Origin: Parabacteroides sp.
Lineage (GTDB): Bacteria; Bacteroidota; Bacteroidia; Bacteroidales; Tannerellaceae
Length of the DNA: 41,513 nucleotides
Assembly (NCBI GenBank): GCA_017937385.1
Contig: JAGBDR010000017.1
Coordinates: forward strand, 1-41,513
Reading direction: 5' to 3'
The first letter of the stretch is position 1. Every line of letters starts with the position of its first letter. The translations under genes were made by a program, and so were the position numbers. Positions 29,568-36,407 of the stretch are shown here, in pieces. Below the pieces are notes generated by a model. It was given only the letters and a program-made list of their open reading frames with translations, searched no databases and was not told the DNA's origin.

Positions 29568-30638
29568 ATGGAGAAGATCAAAACAGGATTGGCAGCCTTC
29601 GGCATGTCAGGGCAAATATTCCATGCCCCCTTTATCAGTACGAATCCGGCATTCAGCCTGACGGCAATCACGGAGCGCAGCAAGGAACTGTCGAAAGAAC
29701 GTTATCCTTCGGCCCGTATCGTGCGCAGCTTTGAGGAGCTCATCGCCTTGGATGAACTGGAGCTGGTCGTTGTCAATACGCCAGACAGTACACACTACGA
29801 GTATGCCCGGAAAGCGCTGGAAACCGGTAAGCATGTGATTGTCGAGAAACCTTTCACGACGACCGTAGAGCAAGGACAGGAACTGGTCGATCTTGCCCGC
29901 TCCAAAGGCTTGGCTATAAGCGTATATCAGAACAGGCGCTGGGATTCGGATTTCTTGACGGTCCGGGATATTCTGGACAAAGGGCTGTTAGGACGTCTTG
30001 TCGAATTCGAATCGACTTTCCCCCGCTACCGCAACTTTATCAAGCCGGGGACCTGGAAAGAAACCGGAGAGTCGGGCGGCGGCCTGACCTATAACTTAGG
30101 AGCTCACGTGATTGACCAGGCAATCCAGTTGTTCGGTGCGCCGGAGGCCGTTTTCGCCGACATCGACATCATTCGTACAGGTGGCAGGGTCGATGATTAT
30201 TTCGTAATCCACCTGCTCCGTCCGTCCAAGGCTCCCCATCTCAAAGTCACCCTGAAATCCAGCTACCTGATGTGCGAGCCAGAGCCCCGCTTCGTCCTGC
30301 ACGGTACGGATGGCTCATTCGTCAAATACGGCCTGGACCGTCAGGAAGCCGACCTGAACAACGGCCTGATTCCCGGTACACCGGGATGGGGTGTGGAAGA
30401 TGAAAGCATCTGGGGACTCCTCCACACGGAGAAAGAAGGCAACACCGTCTGCCGCAAATATCCCAGCCTTGCCGGAAATTACGCAGGCTTTTATGACAAC
30501 ATCTACCACCATCTCCGCCATGGCGAGCCGCTTCTGACAGATGCCGCAGGCGTATTGCCCGTCATCCGTTTGATCGAAGCAGCCTGGAAGAGTAGCAAGG
30601 AAAGAAAAGTGATAGAATTTGAAAACTGTAAGTATTAA
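29568..30638 (+). CDS. Gfo/Idh/MocA-family oxidoreductase
   Basis: A 356-residue NAD(P)-dependent sugar or polyol oxidoreductase. The N-terminal Rossmann domain has GLAAFGMSGQIFHAPF, the VVNTPDSTHYEYARKAL segment and the family signature VEKPFTTTVEQG (EKPF at residues 93-96). The C-terminal alpha/beta domain has SGGGLTYNLGAHVIDQAIQ, with the conserved catalytic-region His. It resembles the YdgJ-like branch. No substrate-specific neighbours help; it follows the YgiQ gene and ends at a strong bidirectional hairpin. Confidence 0.92.
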   Translation: MEKIKTGLAAFGMSGQIFHAPFISTNPAFSLTAITERSKELSKERYPSARIVRSFEELIALDELELVVVNTPDSTHYEYARKALETGKHVIVEKPFTTTVEQGQELVDLARSKGLAISVYQNRRWDSDFLTVRDILDKGLLGRLVEFESTFPRYRNFIKPGTWKETGESGGGLTYNLGAHVIDQAIQLFGAPEAVFADIDIIRTGGRVDDYFVIHLLRPSKAPHLKVTLKSSYLMCEPEPRFVLHGTDGSFVKYGLDRQEADLNNGLIPGTPGWGVEDESIWGLLHTEKEGNTVCRKYPSLAGNYAGFYDNIYHHLRHGEPLLTDAAGVLPVIRLIEAAWKSSKERKVIEFENCKY

Positions 30639-30670
30639 TAGAACTACACCTTATCGGCCTGTAACTTTTG

Positions 30671-30720
30671 AAAAAGCATCATTCAAATACCTTTCAAAGG
30701 ATGTTTGAATGATGCTTTTT
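30671..30720. terminator. Bidirectional terminator between the oxidoreductase and Hsp70 genes
   Basis: Perfect 17-bp inverted repeat, AAAAAGCATCATTCAAA (30671-30687) and TTTGAATGATGCTTTTT (30704-30720), 16-nt loop, with A/T-runs on both sides. It can stop transcription from both convergent units. Confidence 0.88.
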
Positions 30721-30746
30721 TATAATTACAAAAAGCAATAATTGTT

Positions 30747-32183
30747 TTATCGTCCTAACAATCCACCCGTATTACCTCTTTCTGCTTGTGGTAACATTTC
30801 AATAACATCAATAGTTACAGGTTGAAGGAGTTCAACTGTCGGACGATTATTTATAATCTGTATCGCTCTATTAATAAGTTGTCTGGCTTTAACTTTGTCT
30901 ATCCACTGGATATAATCAAATCGCTCATTCAAATCTTGAATAACAGCCATACATTGGAAAAGCATAGTCAAGTGTATAAACAATGAATGCATTTGTTCTA
31001 AGACTTCACGTCCTAAATCAACATTCTTACTTTGAATCACCTGATTCATTTGAGAATATAACTGATTTACAGTTTGACTCGATTTATCATTTCCCAATTT
31101 TTCATTTGCTCTTTTCAGCCGTTCATATTCATCTTTCAATTCTTTTTCCAAACGTTCCCATTCTGTACTATATTCCAAATGCTCTAGTTTGCGAAGAACT
31201 TCTTTTAAATGTTGCAAAACAGCTTTTTTCTCCGAACTATTTCTATTTTCAGACTTGACTATTTCCAAATCCTTTTGTAAAGATGATACCTCAAATCCGA
31301 ATTTCTCCATTTCAAACAGACGATTTTCAGCATTCCGTATTTCCTCAGATATAAAAGATTCAGCATCTGCCAATGATTGCTTCTTTGACGTATCCAAGAT
31401 TTTCGAGATGGTAATGTCCTGTAATGGGAAAAAGACTTCCATTGCCATCATTTCCGAATTGTCGGCCTTCAATGTAATATCCACATTACTTCCTGCTTGA
31501 ATTTGCATTGTTATATCCTTCCCTGTTATAACGACATCTGCCACATATTCATAAATCGATACAGAACGACCTTCACTATCTTCCTCTGCTTGATAGACTG
31601 GTATTCTTAACGTATCACTCTCTATTCCTGGGCGAAGGACATTCGTAGTCTTTAATCCGTTTCTAACCCCTACACCCGGCAATGGCTTATTTTTTTCCAG
31701 ACCTTGAAGTACAGAAAATACTTTTTTCTCTTTATGATCATCCCACGTAGCAATTCCGATATTATAAGGTAATGTCGCACTTCCAATTTTTGTTCCTTGA
31801 ATAATGACAAATTCATCCGGGAAACAAGATAATTGAGAACCTTGCTCATTGTATGCTAAAACTGAAAACACATTGGATTTTCCTTCTGCTAAAAGAGCTT
31901 CAACCACATCTCCCTTCGCATCAATCAATATACGACCACTGGACCAGGCCTTATCACCTCTCACTAATTCAATCCATATTTTATCTTGAGGATAATCCGA
32001 TTTATCCAAACGGATACTAACCCATTCTGATAATTCTACCGATGTTGCCTCATAACCCACTTCCAATGATACCGAACCTGAGGGCACTTCTATATTTCCT
32101 TTACTCTCGTTATCCAATGTAGAAGCATACAGTGCTGCACCTGTTGCTACCGCAGTCAATAGGGTCAATGCTGGTATCCACAT
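30747..32183 (-). CDS. Hsp70-like protein, C-terminal part (separated by a frameshift)
   Basis: This frame holds the second part of the Hsp70 gene begun at 33243. Its real homology starts with TAVATGAALYASTLDN, the end of the Hsp70 ATPase domain, not at the ATG 32183, whose first residues are the preceding codons read out of frame. Removing one base of the AA at 32158-32159 restores a single 831-residue protein. After the ATPase domain comes a beta-rich segment of roughly 130 residues (LSEWVSIRLDKSDYPQDK and onward) that ordinary DnaK does not have, then a DnaK-like substrate domain (LPYNIGIATWDD, then SDTLRIPVYQAEED, comparable to the VYQGE region), then a long charged helical lid (AENRLFEMEKFGFEVSSLQK) and a tail ending GNTGGLLGR. 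The gene ends just before the bidirectional terminator. Low GC like the rest of this block. Confidence 0.75.
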   Translation of the reverse strand: MWIPALTLLTAVATGAALYASTLDNESKGNIEVPSGSVSLEVGYEATSVELSEWVSIRLDKSDYPQDKIWIELVRGDKAWSSGRILIDAKGDVVEALLAEGKSNVFSVLAYNEQGSQLSCFPDEFVIIQGTKIGSATLPYNIGIATWDDHKEKKVFSVLQGLEKNKPLPGVGVRNGLKTTNVLRPGIESDTLRIPVYQAEEDSEGRSVSIYEYVADVVITGKDITMQIQAGSNVDITLKADNSEMMAMEVFFPLQDITISKILDTSKKQSLADAESFISEEIRNAENRLFEMEKFGFEVSSLQKDLEIVKSENRNSSEKKAVLQHLKEVLRKLEHLEYSTEWERLEKELKDEYERLKRANEKLGNDKSSQTVNQLYSQMNQVIQSKNVDLGREVLEQMHSLFIHLTMLFQCMAVIQDLNERFDYIQWIDKVKARQLINRAIQIINNRPTVELLQPVTIDVIEMLPQAERGNTGGLLGR

Positions 32184-33243
32184 TTTTTGTTATCTGCTCA
32201 ACCAACATCTGCCGAATTAAAGGAGAATGTGTAGGACCACCCACTAAAATCAACTTATCTAATTGAGAACCTGACAAATTATTCCGTTCCAAAAGTTCTT
32301 TACATATATTTACCGCCTTTTGGAACAAGGGACGCATGACATCAAATGCTTCAGACTGGGAAACCGTCAAATCCAATTCAATTTCTTCCCCATCTTCATC
32401 TTCTCCCAAATCTCCTAAATTAGAAATAATATCTTCTTTTTCTTTAAATGAAAGTTGGTTTTTCAACTCTTCCGCATACGTTTTCATCGCCTCACGCAAC
32501 ACCTCTTTTGTTCTTGCGTTCGCTAAAATTCCGTCTATCGCATAATTATCTCGAAGATAAGGAATAATGATACTATCCACAATTGCTTCATCTAAATTCT
32601 TGCCTCCTAAGTAATTATCTCCGGCAGTATCAAACACCTGCATAATTCCATCTTCCACCTTCAACAAGGCAGCATCAAATGTTCCACCACCAAAATCAAA
32701 TACCATCCAATAACCATCTTTCGATTGAGAAGAAAGGCCATAAGCCATAGATGCAGCAATAGGCTCTTGCAATAATTCACAATGATTGAACCCTGCCAAC
32801 TTTGCCGCATTCATCGTCGCAGTTTTTTGATTGACCGTAAACTTTGCAGGAACAGTAATCACTACAGAATTAAAATTTTCATCAGTAATAAAGGATTTCA
32901 AAGTTTTTAGCACTTCGGCCGACAATTCTTCCGAATTATAATCTCGCTCCATATTAGAACTCCGATAATACTTATCTGTTCCCATCGAACGCTTAAACTC
33001 AATATATGTATTCGAAACACCGGACTGCCAAGTTTTTGTTGCTCTACGTTTATCACTCTTCATATCATTATAGGCACTATCACCTACTTTGACAATCTTT
33101 CTTCTTGTGATTGACACACAGGAAGGAAGTGTATCTTTCAATGTATCAGTCTTTTTAAGAACCGGTTCACCCTTTTCCATTCTGCAAATAGCAGAGTTGG
33201 TTGTACCTAAATCTATTCCATAATCTATTTTCAAATGTGCCAT
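32110..33243 (-). CDS. Hsp70-like protein, ATPase domain (frame broken near its end)
   Basis: N-terminal 361 or so residues of an Hsp70 chaperone. The nucleotide-binding motifs are all present: phosphate-1 DYGIDLGTTNSAI (residues 7-19), VVITVPAKFTVNQK (127-140), LLQEPIAASMAYGL (157-170), phosphate-2 VFDFGGGTFDAALL (181-194) and adenosine LDKLILVGGPTHSPL (328-342). The frame then leaves the family at NVDTSIDP: the expected DPxTAVATGAA continues in the other frame, because of one extra base at 32158-32159, and translation stops at 32110. It is the third gene of the minus-strand operon, 14 nt after the GrpE-like gene. Either the gene is recently inactivated, or the base is a sequencing error, or frameshifting yields both forms. 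An isolated ATPase domain is unlikely to work as a chaperone alone. Confidence 0.88.
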   Translation of the reverse strand: MAHLKIDYGIDLGTTNSAICRMEKGEPVLKKTDTLKDTLPSCVSITRRKIVKVGDSAYNDMKSDKRRATKTWQSGVSNTYIEFKRSMGTDKYYRSSNMERDYNSEELSAEVLKTLKSFITDENFNSVVITVPAKFTVNQKTATMNAAKLAGFNHCELLQEPIAASMAYGLSSQSKDGYWMVFDFGGGTFDAALLKVEDGIMQVFDTAGDNYLGGKNLDEAIVDSIIIPYLRDNYAIDGILANARTKEVLREAMKTYAEELKNQLSFKEKEDIISNLGDLGEDEDGEEIELDLTVSQSEAFDVMRPLFQKAVNICKELLERNNLSGSQLDKLILVGGPTHSPLIRQMLVEQITKNVDTSIDPIDCGSNRCSTVCFYIG

Positions 33244-33257
33244 AATACTATATATTT

Positions 33258-34136
33258 TTAAATGTTCTGACTAACTGTTATTTGAGCAGCCTGTATCATT
33301 ACTCCGTTATAATTTATTTGCGGTTTTATGATACCGGTTATTGTTTGTTCCCCTTTTTTTAAACTCTCATCGGAAACAAAATTGGCAACTACTTTCATTC
33401 CCTCATTATAAGGCTTTCCCAACATATCTACCATTTCGTAACCATTCGCCAAAAAATTATTTTTGATACGTTCTACCGCTTTGCATAATTGCTTATGACC
33501 TTTCACGGATACATCCATTCGAGACAAATTCATTTCAATACGTATGATTTCATCTGCTACTTTCAATGCCAAAGAATGATCTTGCCCTTGAATAGAAGAT
33601 ACCGCTGATTGATTCATTTGTACGTTCATCTGCTTATCCAACAATTCTATCAGCTTGTTATCTAACTTAACAGATTCTACTTGTATTGAATCTTGTGCTT
33701 TCTTTATTCTATGAATGGCAGATGAATCTGACGAAATACGTCTATGTAACAGGAAATAGATTATCGCCAACAAGGATAGAGCCAAAACAAAGCCAATACC
33801 TCCGTAAATTGTTTTTGTCTTTATTTCTTCTGCCAAGACTTCTTTATTTTTATTTACGACAATACGAGTTTCATCAATATTAGAAACAATTAATTTTTCC
33901 TTAGCCTCTATCTGATTTTGTATTAAAACTGATAGATTTTTTATACTATCTGTTTCATGTGCCAAATATTGAAGTCGTTTTTCCATTTGGCGATCCACAG
34001 AACGCATAGAATTAATTCTTTTTTCTATACGAATAAGTGTTTGTTGGATATCTATCAATTCCAAACTATCTTTGTTCTCTCCATAAACTAAATTTGAGAT
34101 GAACAATAACACAATTAATAACTTGCAACATTTCAT
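33258..34136 (-). CDS. Membrane-anchored GrpE-like protein
   Basis: A 292-residue protein that I do not know as a named family. It has an N-terminal signal (CKLLIVLLFISNLVYG), a charged coiled-coil segment (about 25-105), one membrane span at about 109-131 (IYGGIGFVLALSLLAIIYFL) and a second helical region followed, at about 186-290, by a domain resembling the GrpE exchange factor: a helix (KQLCKAVERIKNNFLANGYE) then VDMLGKPYNEGMKVVANF and GIIKPQINYNGVMIQAAQI, which parallels GrpE's GEPFDP...GY...LRPA.V.V pattern. If the signal is cleaved, the coiled coil is periplasmic and the GrpE-like part cytosolic, next to the Hsp70 encoded 14 nt downstream. That makes a nucleotide-exchange role likely, but it is inference from resemblance and context. 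It starts 3 nt after the J-like gene. Confidence 0.7.
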   Translation of the reverse strand: MKCCKLLIVLLFISNLVYGENKDSLELIDIQQTLIRIEKRINSMRSVDRQMEKRLQYLAHETDSIKNLSVLIQNQIEAKEKLIVSNIDETRIVVNKNKEVLAEEIKTKTIYGGIGFVLALSLLAIIYFLLHRRISSDSSAIHRIKKAQDSIQVESVKLDNKLIELLDKQMNVQMNQSAVSSIQGQDHSLALKVADEIIRIEMNLSRMDVSVKGHKQLCKAVERIKNNFLANGYEMVDMLGKPYNEGMKVVANFVSDESLKKGEQTITGIIKPQINYNGVMIQAAQITVSQNI

Positions 34137-34139
34137 ACT

Positions 34140-35690
34140 TTAAGAATTTACTAGAATTACTATAATGATAAAAATTACTATTACAATAATACATCCCCAA
34201 TTAGTTGCGTCATCACTACTATTTGCAGAAGACTTATTGGGCTGACTAGATCTACTTACAGAATTAGATTGATAAGTATTTATTCCTAATTGATTACATA
34301 TATTTTTTAACGTATTCTTATTAGGTATATATCTATTTTGTTTGAAATCACCTTCCATGTCAAAAGTATCCATGATTTTTATCGTATTCCAAGCCTCTTG
34401 CAAAGTGTTTTTTAAAACAGGGAGCATTGATTGAATACGTAATCTTTTTTCATATGACCTTTCATAACCATAAGAACTTATATTCATTTTATCTTGAATA
34501 TCATTCACTTCTTCTATCACATTGTGCAAAGCATTTCCTACCACTTGTGTAGATAATTTCAAATAAAAAGAATGACTTATTCCAAGTTTTGTTTTTATAG
34601 ATTGAAGATAGGATTTCGTATTGTTTAATAAAGTCTTAGAATGACATATCTTATCTGGCAACGAACAAAACTTTCGTAATTCTTCTTTAATAGCCTTATC
34701 CTCTATAAGTACCTCCTTCGGTGGTAATTCATCTATCACTTTTTGAAGAATATCCACATTCTCTTTACATCTATCTTTTGCAGCTTTACCTACAACTATG
34801 CTCAAAGCATACTTTTGTAAAGGCATCGCTTTAATTGCTGCATCCGGTTCCTCTGATGCATTATAATAGTCGATTCCACATTGTAATATTTCAAGTCCCA
34901 ATTTGTCAGCTATTATCTGATAGTGTACATCCGATGACAAGACAAGAGCTTTCAAATTAGCCAATGCCATAGCTGTATTTTTCTTTAACGTATTTCCAGC
35001 CAAATATCGTTCCTTATGATTTTCTCTTTTAACGGCATGTACTTTTTCTACTTCTCTTGAAATAGAGGTAATCAAAGGCTGAACCAGCTTATCTTTTATA
35101 TATGTACTCCATTCCACATCTGTTGTGACACAGTTCAAGAATTGCTTGTGATCAATATCTTTCTCTTCAAAGAGAGTATCAATAAAAAGATGTACCAAGT
35201 CTAATGAAGTGAGTGAAATTTGAGTATCTAACAAATTCAAAATATTCTCTGCATATTTTTCATATAACGCTTTTGCATAAAAAAACGCTTTCTTCCAATC
35301 TCTTTGAATCAAAGAACAAACCAATATATTTTGCAATGAAGAGAATGAATCTTTTTTACCCCAAATAGCAACAGCCGAATCTATATCTCCTGCCTGTAAA
35401 TGATTAAAAGCAATCTTGTCTATAGGAGTTATATTCACAAACCAAAACAATATATATTTGATTTGTTCCTTGGCCAAACTAATTTGTGATTCCGCCTGTG
35501 AAATAGACTCTGTGTCTCGTTGCACAACCGGAAATAATGTATTCAAATCCAAAGGAAACTCCACTTGCTTGCCGACTTTCAGGAAAGCACTAATTCTTCC
35601 TTTATTCGATACAATTTCCTTTTTAGGAGAATTGGTATATACACCCAATATACGATAAGGATTATCTATTAAAATCGAAAGATTCGCCAT
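34140..35690 (-). CDS. J-domain-like protein with C-terminal membrane anchor
   Basis: First gene of the Hsp70 operon, 516 residues. The N-terminus IDNPYRILGVYTNSPKKEI (8-26) resembles helix I and the start of helix II of J domains (compare DYYEILGVS...). The following segment, ISAFLKVGKQVEFPLDL and AESQISLAKEQIKYILFWF (to about residue 84), reads like the rest of a J-like helical unit, but the HPD tripeptide that stimulates Hsp70 ATPase is absent. The middle is helical, with possible repeat-like helices (AGDIDSAVAIWGKKDSF; KKAFFYAKALYEKYAENIL). A Ser/Asn-rich linker leads to a C-terminal membrane anchor (CIIVIVIFIIIVILV, about 500-514). Topology suggests a cytosolic body tethered to the membrane. 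AT-rich, and three bases from the GrpE-like gene. The J-like call is inference; the anchor is clear. Confidence 0.65.
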   Translation of the reverse strand: MANLSILIDNPYRILGVYTNSPKKEIVSNKGRISAFLKVGKQVEFPLDLNTLFPVVQRDTESISQAESQISLAKEQIKYILFWFVNITPIDKIAFNHLQAGDIDSAVAIWGKKDSFSSLQNILVCSLIQRDWKKAFFYAKALYEKYAENILNLLDTQISLTSLDLVHLFIDTLFEEKDIDHKQFLNCVTTDVEWSTYIKDKLVQPLITSISREVEKVHAVKRENHKERYLAGNTLKKNTAMALANLKALVLSSDVHYQIIADKLGLEILQCGIDYYNASEEPDAAIKAMPLQKYALSIVVGKAAKDRCKENVDILQKVIDELPPKEVLIEDKAIKEELRKFCSLPDKICHSKTLLNNTKSYLQSIKTKLGISHSFYLKLSTQVVGNALHNVIEEVNDIQDKMNISSYGYERSYEKRLRIQSMLPVLKNTLQEAWNTIKIMDTFDMEGDFKQNRYIPNKNTLKNICNQLGINTYQSNSVSRSSQPNKSSANSSDDATNWGCIIVIVIFIIIVILVNS

Positions 35691-35756
35691 ATATAATCAA
35701 TATGTCTCTCCCGGCTCCTCAATAGACAATTTATTCATTCATAATAGCATATACAC

Positions 35757-36081
35757 AAAAAACGTGGAGCCAGTCCTGTTGCCCGTTCCACTGTTTGAAG
35801 GCCTTCGCATTGCCCGATTAGTCGAAACGAGCAACGCCGAAAGCCCCACGCCGATGTGAATATATAATCTACCCCTTATGCTTCAACCCCTTTTCTGGCA
35901 TCGAACCAATCAGAATAGTATATAATACACCCAAGGGGCATTCACCGTTGCTTTGTTCTTGACTAATCGTTTTTAGAAGTTGCGAAGTTCTCAAACAGTC
36001 AAAACCAAAGCGTTCAGTAAACGCCTTTATGTATATGTGTCCCTCCTAGCCTCTCTTGCCTGAATATCGGCGTGAGCGAGA
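35757..36081 (-). ncRNA. Probable structured RNA upstream of the Hsp70 operon
   Basis: On the minus strand, TATTTTTG (36094-36087) fits a -7 box, and about 325 nt later a short stem (GTGGA / TCCAC) is followed by six U (35762-35757). Between them, GGCTTTCGGCGTTGCTCG (35845-35828) pairs with CGGGCAATGCGAAGGCC (35816-35800) in an 18-bp helix with one bulged G and three G-U pairs; on the plus strand those would be A-C mismatches, so the helix belongs to minus-strand RNA. Further stems are TTGACT with AGTCAA, CCCCTT with AAGGGG and GCGTT with AACGC. A 21-codon frame (35876-35941, starting MPLGCIIYYSD) lies inside and may be chance. It could be a separate small RNA or a long leader of the operon starting at 35690. 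No known class is recognised. Confidence 0.5.
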
Positions 36082-36228
36082 CGAGACAAAAATATCACTT
36101 TTTTAGTTTATAAGCTATTGTTTTGCAATTTTTCTATCAAAATGAATCCGGTTCGCTTAGAAAACCGCTTTTACGAATCTTCTCGAAGTTCTGTATTCCA
36201 ACTTTTCTTTCTTTCCCACCCAACAATT

Positions 36229-36312
36229 CTATAATCAGTGCCACCGATTATAAAATCACAACCACTGATTATATAATTGCAGGCAGCGATTACATAATCA
36301 GTGGTTGCGATT
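36229..36312. repeat. Four tandem 21-bp units upstream of glyA
   Basis: Units at 36229-36249, 36250-36270, 36271-36291 and 36292-36312 each end GATT and share an ATAATC/ATAATT core followed by a variable six bases. Units 2 and 4 are inversely related: AATCACAACCACTGATTAT (36254-36272) pairs with ATAATCAGTGGTTGCGATT (36294-36312) with one mismatch. A 21-bp period equals two helical turns, suggesting stacked binding sites. 36313-36400 shows nothing else beyond an A8 run and a direct GATTTC triplet. Confidence 0.65.
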
Positions 36313-36407
36313 AAAAAAAATTATAAGCATATAAATATATTTGTATGTAGGGTACAGAAAGATTTCGATTTCGATTCCCATTTACCTCTCAGTATGATTT
36401 TTTGTCG

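Follow-up and report, generated by a model that had tools for sequence, protein, structure and literature searches.

The Locus in Parabacteroides sp.

A 41,513-nucleotide (nt) stretch of DNA from Parabacteroides sp. (contig JAGBDR010000017.1 of assembly GCA_017937385.1; the whole stretch is called the window hereafter) carries a compact minus-strand operon encoding a J-like protein, a membrane-spanning GrpE-like protein, and an Hsp70. The three genes lie at 35690–34140, at 34136–33258, and from 33243 downward, with intergenic gaps of 3 and 14 nt. Their tight packing, like their AT-richness relative to both flanks, had been recorded in a first-pass annotation of the same DNA, and both observations are borne out, with a GC content of 0.30–0.39 in 1-kb bins between 31 and 36 kb versus 0.47–0.52 at 28–31 kb and 0.48–0.51 at 37–40 kb. 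The set is also, as supposed there, distinct from the main DnaK set of the cell, since the host's own DnaK, DnaJ, and GrpE genes are separate and lie on other contigs of the assembly (3.73 Mb in 128 contigs), with a host DnaJ that bears the His-Pro-Asp (HPD) motif. The protein-coding features of the operon are as follows.

34140..35690, minus strand: J-like protein of 516 amino acids (aa), with a J-like N-terminus lacking HPD, an alpha-solenoid, and a C-terminal tail anchor
35436..35690, minus strand: J-like domain, residues 1–85 (profile alignment; invariant columns of 45 sequences)
34149..34205, minus strand: predicted C-terminal membrane span, residues 496–514 (hydropathy)
33258..34136, minus strand: GrpE-like protein of 292 aa, with a signal segment, a coiled coil, one span, and a GrpE domain
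33747..33803, minus strand: internal span of the GrpE-like protein, residues 112–130 (hydropathy)
33261..33581, minus strand: GrpE-like domain, residues 186–292 (AlphaFold model, Foldseek)
32110..33243, minus strand: Hsp70 ATPase-domain open reading frame (ORF) of 377 aa, last residues off frame (PF00012, E 2.4e-61)
30747..32183, minus strand: second Hsp70 piece in another frame, first residues off frame (C-terminal part of the single ORFs of relatives)

The Complete Module in Relatives

A GrpE-like profile search of a species-level genome collection retrieved 147 relatives, from which the best 80 loci by GrpE-like similarity were used. The usual order in these loci is J-like, GrpE-like, Hsp70, optional genes, a kinase-AAA+ fusion, and a TerB-like gene. 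With contig ends allowed for, a J-like gene lies upstream in 71/76 loci, and the Hsp70 gene is present in 78/80, the AAA+ fusion in 52/57, and the TerB-like gene in 43/52 (44/52 if L055 is corrected, where the gene is present and was missed through a second downstream kinase match). The three genes of the original triad, whose co-occurrence had been put forward for checking, do stay together in the 80 loci examined; the triad as the whole system was rejected, because two more genes follow in most relatives. The five loci counted without a J-like gene comprise L034, L074, and L079, which have intervening genes, L031, which has none in its stretch, and L084, a lone GrpE-like gene that also lacks Hsp70. 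The other Hsp70 miss, L072, has a split GrpE-like frame with the Hsp70 gene after the second piece. Among loci without the fusion, the TerB-like gene of L043 adjoins Hsp70, and four others belong to a short-GrpE subtype. This subtype (171 aa) is seen in L063–L065, L069, L077, and L078; several J-like genes stand in a row in L064, L065, and L077, and the AAA+ fusion is absent from L064, L065, L069, and L077. Separately, a second Hsp70-like gene directly follows the first in L099 (13292–15748), a possible in-operon duplication.

Optional genes occur between Hsp70 and the AAA+ fusion in 22/52 loci, and among the proteins examined from this slot are a bacterial SH3 protein and several that carry signal or membrane segments. 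The fusion protein itself combines Pfam protein-kinase and AAA domains. In an alignment of 64 of the 71 fusion ORFs (those longer than 480 aa), the Walker A Lys and the Walker B Glu of the AAA+ part are present in all 64, the Walker B Asp is kept in 61, and the two arginine-finger positions are kept in 61 and 64. Its kinase part retains the ATP-binding Lys in 56/64 and the Asp of the DFG motif in 49/64, and the catalytic Asp in only 15/64, the residue being otherwise mostly Glu (30), Gly, Ala, or Asn; with this Asp mostly missing, the kinase is by that criterion mostly a pseudokinase. One relative is annotated as TerB family in its database record.

The window copy has neither the kinase-AAA+ fusion nor the TerB-like gene, and the fusion was not found in the window genome, where two matches, both on other contigs, cover the AAA part only or the kinase part only. 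Among 74 Hsp70 ATPase domains placed in a tree, the window's eight nearest neighbors all come from loci with the AAA+ fusion (local support is low, 0.4 and 0.73), which suggests loss or partial transfer in the window.

A GrpE-like Protein That Spans the Membrane

The AlphaFold model of the GrpE-like protein (pLDDT 87.5, pTM 0.51) ends C-terminally in two helices and six strands, and Foldseek ranks 1–13 are all GrpE or GrpEL1 entries (best E 2.8e-5). The TM-scores are low, 0.31–0.46 by target, probably owing to a different placing of the dominant long helices. The GrpE fold proposed for this C-terminal domain is thus found in the model and its 13 top matches, with weaker support from sequence: PF01025 matches at E up to 1 in 17/69 GrpE-like members (best E 7.4e-7) and in 4/10 isolated C-termini, all four below the cut-off. 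Sequence searches of the PDB with the GrpE-like and J-like profiles were also tried and returned mostly coiled coils and repeats.

An internal span is predicted in all 73 members of at least 280 aa, the window included, and in 8/9 shorter ORFs. More positive charge lies C-terminal of the span in 70/73 of the longer members, and this positive-inside bias predicts that the GrpE domain is placed inside the cell and the coiled coil outside it. By the same cut-off as for the span, a hydrophobic N-terminus occurs in 36/73, and the dipeptide AQ falls within the first 75 residues in 49/73, a position compatible with signal cleavage. The hydrophobic N-terminal segment and the span at residues 112–130 agree with the initial description of a signal and one span.

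The J-like Protein and Its Contact with Hsp70

Aligned with canonical J domains in hhalign, the first ~90 residues of the J-like family reach 89% probability (E 2.3e-6), versus at most 1.4% for eight column shuffles; by profile, this domain is a J relative. The model of the J-like protein (pLDDT 91, pTM 0.77) places helices at residues 11–14, 23–38, 60–71, and 73–80 in J order, that is, a short helix I, helix II, a loop, and helices III and IV. A helical array comes next, and the predicted span coincides with a C-terminal helix. The HPD tripeptide, present in 16/16 canonical controls, occurs in 0/72 J-like domains, a count that omits 16 of the 88 J-like ORFs, in which no start motif was found in the first 60 residues. 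An invariant Asp48 stands at or near the profile-aligned place of the HPD Asp in 45 sequences. PF00226 (DnaJ) is not among the Pfam families of the window protein, nor among the 25 most frequent of the 92 Pfam families matched by 45 J-like members. A J-like N-terminus with a C-terminal anchor, as first described, therefore holds for the homology and for the span at residues 496–514, with the HPD motif of a working J domain lacking.

The Hsp70 partner is altered at the facing positions. Where DnaK has Arg167, Glu is found in 72/74 family members (Arg in 18/18 host-type DnaK), and where it has Asn170, Gln is found in 74/74 (Asn in 18/18); we take these residue numbers to be those of E. coli DnaK, transferred via the flanking motif. 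The linker position aligned to Leu391 is also changed in most members. In published descriptions, the DnaK-DnaJ contact joins the HPD His to linker Leu391 and the Asp to Arg167 and Gln378 (PMC8215388, PMC13012618). The loss of HPD together with the replacement of the contact Arg by Glu makes a textbook J cycle unlikely, and a normal HPD-driven cycle was not upheld, given the absence of HPD in 72/72. With both contact sides altered, the evidence argues against textbook J triggering and not against binding. J-like and Hsp70 distances show the highest correlation of all pairs (Spearman 0.72, calculated without a tree control).

The Hsp70 Gene and Its Broken Frame

Over the ATPase domain, the Hsp70 family gives a 100% profile match to DnaK, and the window ATPase-domain ORF matches the Hsp70 ORFs of six full-gene loci at E 1e-133 or better. 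The second piece corresponds to the end of the ATPase domain, the beta region, and the helical C-terminus (E 4e-76 or better, six loci). The ATPase part runs from 33243 to 32110 and the remainder from 32183 to 30747, with a frame switch near 32,150–32,165. The six related loci with a full Hsp70 gene that were examined first each encode it in one ORF of 832–846 aa, and in the larger relative set 74/80 Hsp70-labeled ORFs exceed 800 aa, the other six being the last ORF listed in the locus. A programmed frameshift was rejected on this basis; the intact single ORF in relatives indicates that the window gene is frameshifted or misassembled, the break being either a real frameshift or an assembly error. 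The interdomain linker is only partly kept in the family. The initial identification of an Hsp70 with all ATPase motifs stands for the clear ATPase domain (PF00012) and needs amending in that the gene is not one reading frame.

A Structured RNA Leader Upstream of the J-like Gene

The operon is preceded by a structured element.

35746..36051, minus strand: structured RNA leader upstream of the J-like gene, ~300 nt (repeated element; alignment A7 and consensus fold)
35753..35856, minus strand: 3′ domain of the leader, with a terminator-like helix and a T-run at its end (covariance model R1, 110 bits; the window is a training row)

Leader matches occur in 19/59 genomes, own included, at up to six each, some of which are two halves of one copy. 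The covariance model R1 of the 3′ domain was trained on 21 copies from the genus of the window, the window's own included, and matches in 29/38 genomes of that genus; across the phylum, under stricter filters, it matched only in the window genome among 296. Rfam gave no credible match, only sub-threshold microRNA models in the region, which were taken as chance. In the relative set, the leader precedes the J-like gene on the operon strand in 19/80 loci; 67 loci have a J-like gene preceded by over 350 nt of sequence. Seventeen of these leaders lie 33–104 nt from the J motif, the other two 280 and 309 nt from it. The matches in L086 and L092 are weak.

Covariation supports the fold in the operon-locus set, in which the window is the only training row: pair cells are kept at 96.4% versus at most 53.1% for slid versions. 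There, 17/26 pairs have changes on both sides versus 4.2 in shuffles, in an alignment that is fitted to R1 and includes an antisense row (the match in L096, taken as spurious and left in the pair count) as well as two identical rows (L080 and L085). Within the genus copies alone, both-side changes are seen in only 3/46 predicted pairs. Given the T-run after the outer helix, a terminator-type attenuator would be the natural reading, and the leader probably controls the module.

Other leader copies stand in front of genes for a kinase with a VWA protein, PP2C with a kinase, a UvrD-like helicase, and GrpE with Hsp70, as well as genes that could not be assigned. A copy precedes apparent type III restriction mod/res pairs in L247, L249, L250, and L256 (with a Pfam basis in L249 only), and in L258 (1935–4762) a different GrpE-Hsp70 pair of the same genus lies behind one. 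Judged from these loci (L240–L259) and the window, the leader is a candidate new RNA family at the front of accessory operons.

Insertion Site, Spread, and Neighborhood

Comparison within the genus delimits the unit that carries the operon, which is bounded by further structured elements.

30612..36395, no strand assigned: inserted unit of ~5.78 kb between a Gfo/Idh oxidoreductase gene and glyA (same-genus comparison)
30666..30725, minus strand: terminator-like hairpin after the Hsp70 gene (inverted repeat with 29-nt arms; fold of 30660–30735 at −26.6 kcal/mol, z −6.8)
36221..36318, no strand assigned: four 21-nt-spaced repeats with strong hairpins near the outer edge of the insert (−46 kcal/mol, z −8.2), a possible insertion or control site

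The oxidoreductase neighbor was retrieved at the cut-off in 12/37 genomes, own included. In seven other genomes of the genus (L209–L215), glyA adjoins the oxidoreductase gene and the unit is absent; in L209 and L211, the homologues of window positions 30611 and 36396 are only 43 nt apart, versus 5,784 in the window. Four more distant genomes with the oxidoreductase gave no glyA match within the examined stretch. The same site in L210 holds a different short insert, by eye a relBE-type pair.

J-like protein matches were obtained in 9/98 genomes, own included, a tally that keeps a probably spurious match with no operon around it (G076). In an even draw of 392 Bacteroidota genomes, the GrpE-like profile matched in at least seven, own included; this is a lower bound, as five candidates per genome were scored, and it keeps one probably spurious match that covers only profile positions 22–172 (G119). 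With 6/391 other Bacteroidota genomes matching, the module is rare and patchy, and on sequence grounds it is read as horizontally spread. A phage-borne system was rejected, as neither a phage record nor a relative of the GrpE-like protein on a viral contig was found.

Plasmid pHALHY02 of Haliscomenobacter hydrossis (L187; NC_015512.1, 275–21144) carries the full operon beside the BREX genes brxL and pglZ and a McrBC-like gene, with a SIR2-family gene further upstream. In a PADLOC scan, 118 flanking proteins (sampled from 419 ORFs of at least 200 aa and including some optional operon genes) matched 166 models, compared with 18 models for 103 control proteins (sampled from 232 ORFs in 20 regions of five genomes), with many models matching one protein. 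Type I and II restriction-modification proteins appear among the 25 of these 166 families that were listed. The J-like, GrpE-like, Hsp70, and TerB-like proteins gave no PADLOC match or one at E 0.014 and worse, and the matches of the AAA+ fusion, to many kinase and AAA models, reflect the generic domain only.

Comparison with Known Systems

A literature search, conducted mostly at the level of titles and abstract openings, returned no account of the module, a membrane GrpE, an HPD-less bacterial J-like protein, or the leader. Relative to the host DnaK-DnaJ-GrpE set, the module shares the Hsp70 ATPase fold and the GrpE fold, whereas the host genes lie separately elsewhere and the host DnaJ carries HPD. 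An HPD-less J-like fold beside a membrane Hsp70 system recalls Pam16/Tim16, in which a J-like fold without a working HPD is paired with the HPD-bearing Pam18 in the mitochondrial import motor. The present systems differ in being bacterial rather than mitochondrial, and no HPD-bearing partner was noticed in their operons, although no search was aimed at one.

Three bacterial arrangements are also comparable. HscC is a dedicated, divergent Hsp70 of sporadic spread encoded near tail-anchored J proteins; DjlC stimulates its ATPase, and it probably works without a GrpE interaction (PMC8215388). HscC with DjlB/DjlC in E. coli thus resembles the present system in coupling a dedicated Hsp70 to a tail-anchored J protein; the present system differs in counting a membrane GrpE among its core genes and in having a J-like protein devoid of HPD. 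The GrpE2-DnaK2 pair of Myxococcus xanthus (MXAN_6672, MXAN_6671), a two-gene operon without a J neighbor, similarly offers a second Hsp70 with its own GrpE on one transcript, whereas no membrane span, AAA+ gene, or TerB gene is mentioned in the part of the description available (PMC11019930). Hsp70-GrpE-DnaJ sets have further been reported within predicted conflict systems involving a GAP1-N2 GTPase (Kaur et al. 2020, PMC7159879). These are comparable in placing Hsp70, GrpE, and DnaJ-type genes in accessory, membrane-associated neighborhoods but are centered on GTPase/FNIII proteins and, for the Hsp70-bearing kind, found mainly in Actinobacteria and Firmicutes (PMC7159879). The present module, mostly from Bacteroidota, instead adds a kinase-AAA+ motor accompanied by a TerB-like protein. 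The Pfam matches of those operon proteins that were scanned include no GTPase, with no search aimed at GAP1-N2 or FNIII.

Proposed Function and Alternative Explanations

The reading that we favor, and to which we give an even chance, is that the window holds a truncated, frameshifted copy of a horizontally spread module whose complete form is an Hsp70 and AAA+ machine at the inner membrane face. In such a machine, a change would be sensed by the coiled coil outside or by an optional partner in the envelope, and the GrpE domain would relay the signal to the tethered Hsp70 by controlling its nucleotide exchange. The J-like protein would recruit clients or hold Hsp70 instead of triggering hydrolysis through HPD, the AAA+ fusion would extract or unfold the client, and the leader would hold expression back until termination is relieved. 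Most likely, the module responds to envelope stress or to invaders. The copy in the window is probably impaired or incomplete and may be inactive. A bolder version, which we advance only tentatively, is that the module represents a new class of mobile trans-envelope conflict machine, with a coiled coil-driven exchange factor, a rewired J contact, a pseudokinase-AAA+ motor, and a new terminator-type RNA leader that a restriction system and further Bacteroidales accessory operons carry as well. The first-pass annotation was largely right in its observation, in that J homology, a GrpE fold, and co-occurrence of the genes were all found, and partly right in its interpretation. Of the self-contained membrane Hsp70 cycle it envisaged, the dedicated set and the predicted spans stand; the normal cycle is doubtful, and two further genes are usual.

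Several results weigh against the machine proposed here. The window GrpE-like protein, whether full-length or as an isolated C-terminus, has no PF01025 match. Against a GrpE profile of 25 host-type sequences, two of them fragments, the C-terminal domain reaches only 2.1% probability, colinear over 93 columns and scoring above eight shuffles, and the full-length alignment 0.8% over just 14 columns. On the J side, the canonical reference set is small (16 sequences) and was picked by HPD, the C-terminal span is clear by hydropathy in only 55/88 J-like proteins, and Foldseek found no PDB match at E 0.001 or better for the whole-chain model, its best 50 rows containing weak solenoid matches and no J structure. 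The J fold anticipated for the first 85 residues is accordingly upheld by the profile and by the helix order of the model and not by the whole-chain fold search. The Hsp70 family profile, colinear with the DnaK substrate domain, scores there at shuffle level, and the TerB-like proteins of the three relatives scanned match PF05099 only below the cut-off (E 0.008–0.059). The commonest PADLOC model, mad3, matches three flanking and three control proteins.

Among the alternatives, the window locus could be a decaying remnant with no current role, the working system existing in relatives only, a possibility that falls just short of an even chance. The broken Hsp70 frame and the missing AAA+ and TerB-like genes favor it, and one relative is likewise damaged, with an in-frame stop in its J gene and a split AAA+ gene (L017). 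Yet, that break aside, open frames are kept in the J-like and GrpE-like genes and in both Hsp70 pieces, and a terminator-like hairpin follows them. In a 128-contig assembly, an error of sequencing or assembly may account for the frameshift, a point that also tells against the truncated, frameshifted copy that we favor. An ordinary specialized chaperone set for membrane or exported proteins, similar to HscC with DjlB/DjlC and cycling normally under J stimulation, is improbable. The pairing of a tail-anchored J protein with a dedicated Hsp70 is indeed the HscC/DjlC arrangement (PMC8215388), and a membrane-facing GrpE domain would fit local cycling. However, the absence of HPD and the Glu at the J-contact Arg speak against normal stimulation, HscC itself probably lacks a GrpE interaction (same source), and a housekeeping chaperone would be expected to be less patchy.

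That the module serves specifically in anti-phage or anti-plasmid defense, its Hsp70/AAA+ machine detecting an invader's effect on the membrane and acting on an invader protein or on the cell, appears unlikely, if well short of improbable. The unit is patchy, inserted, and AT-rich at a site that holds a different insert in L210; the operon on pHALHY02 adjoins BREX and McrBC-like genes; the same leader precedes a type III restriction pair and the kinase/VWA and PP2C/kinase operons; more PADLOC models are matched in flanks than in controls; and Hsp70-GrpE-DnaJ sets have been reported in predicted conflict systems (PMC7159879). Nevertheless, many PADLOC models overlap on single proteins, mad3 matches three of the 118 flanking and three of the 103 control proteins, and the AAA+ fusion matches through its generic domain. 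The GrpE-like protein has no phage record or viral-contig relative, and no toxic effector domain was recognized in the proteins scanned.

Implications

If the proposed Hsp70 and AAA+ machine is right, control over nucleotide exchange on an Hsp70 can reach across a membrane, and a J-type adaptor can do without HPD by virtue of a matching change in its Hsp70. The family would then offer a natural experiment in which a central Hsp70 contact has been altered jointly on both sides across dozens of species, bearing directly on the gating of Hsp70 cycles. The candidate leader, in turn, would provide a way of studying the control of newly acquired accessory genes in Bacteroidales.

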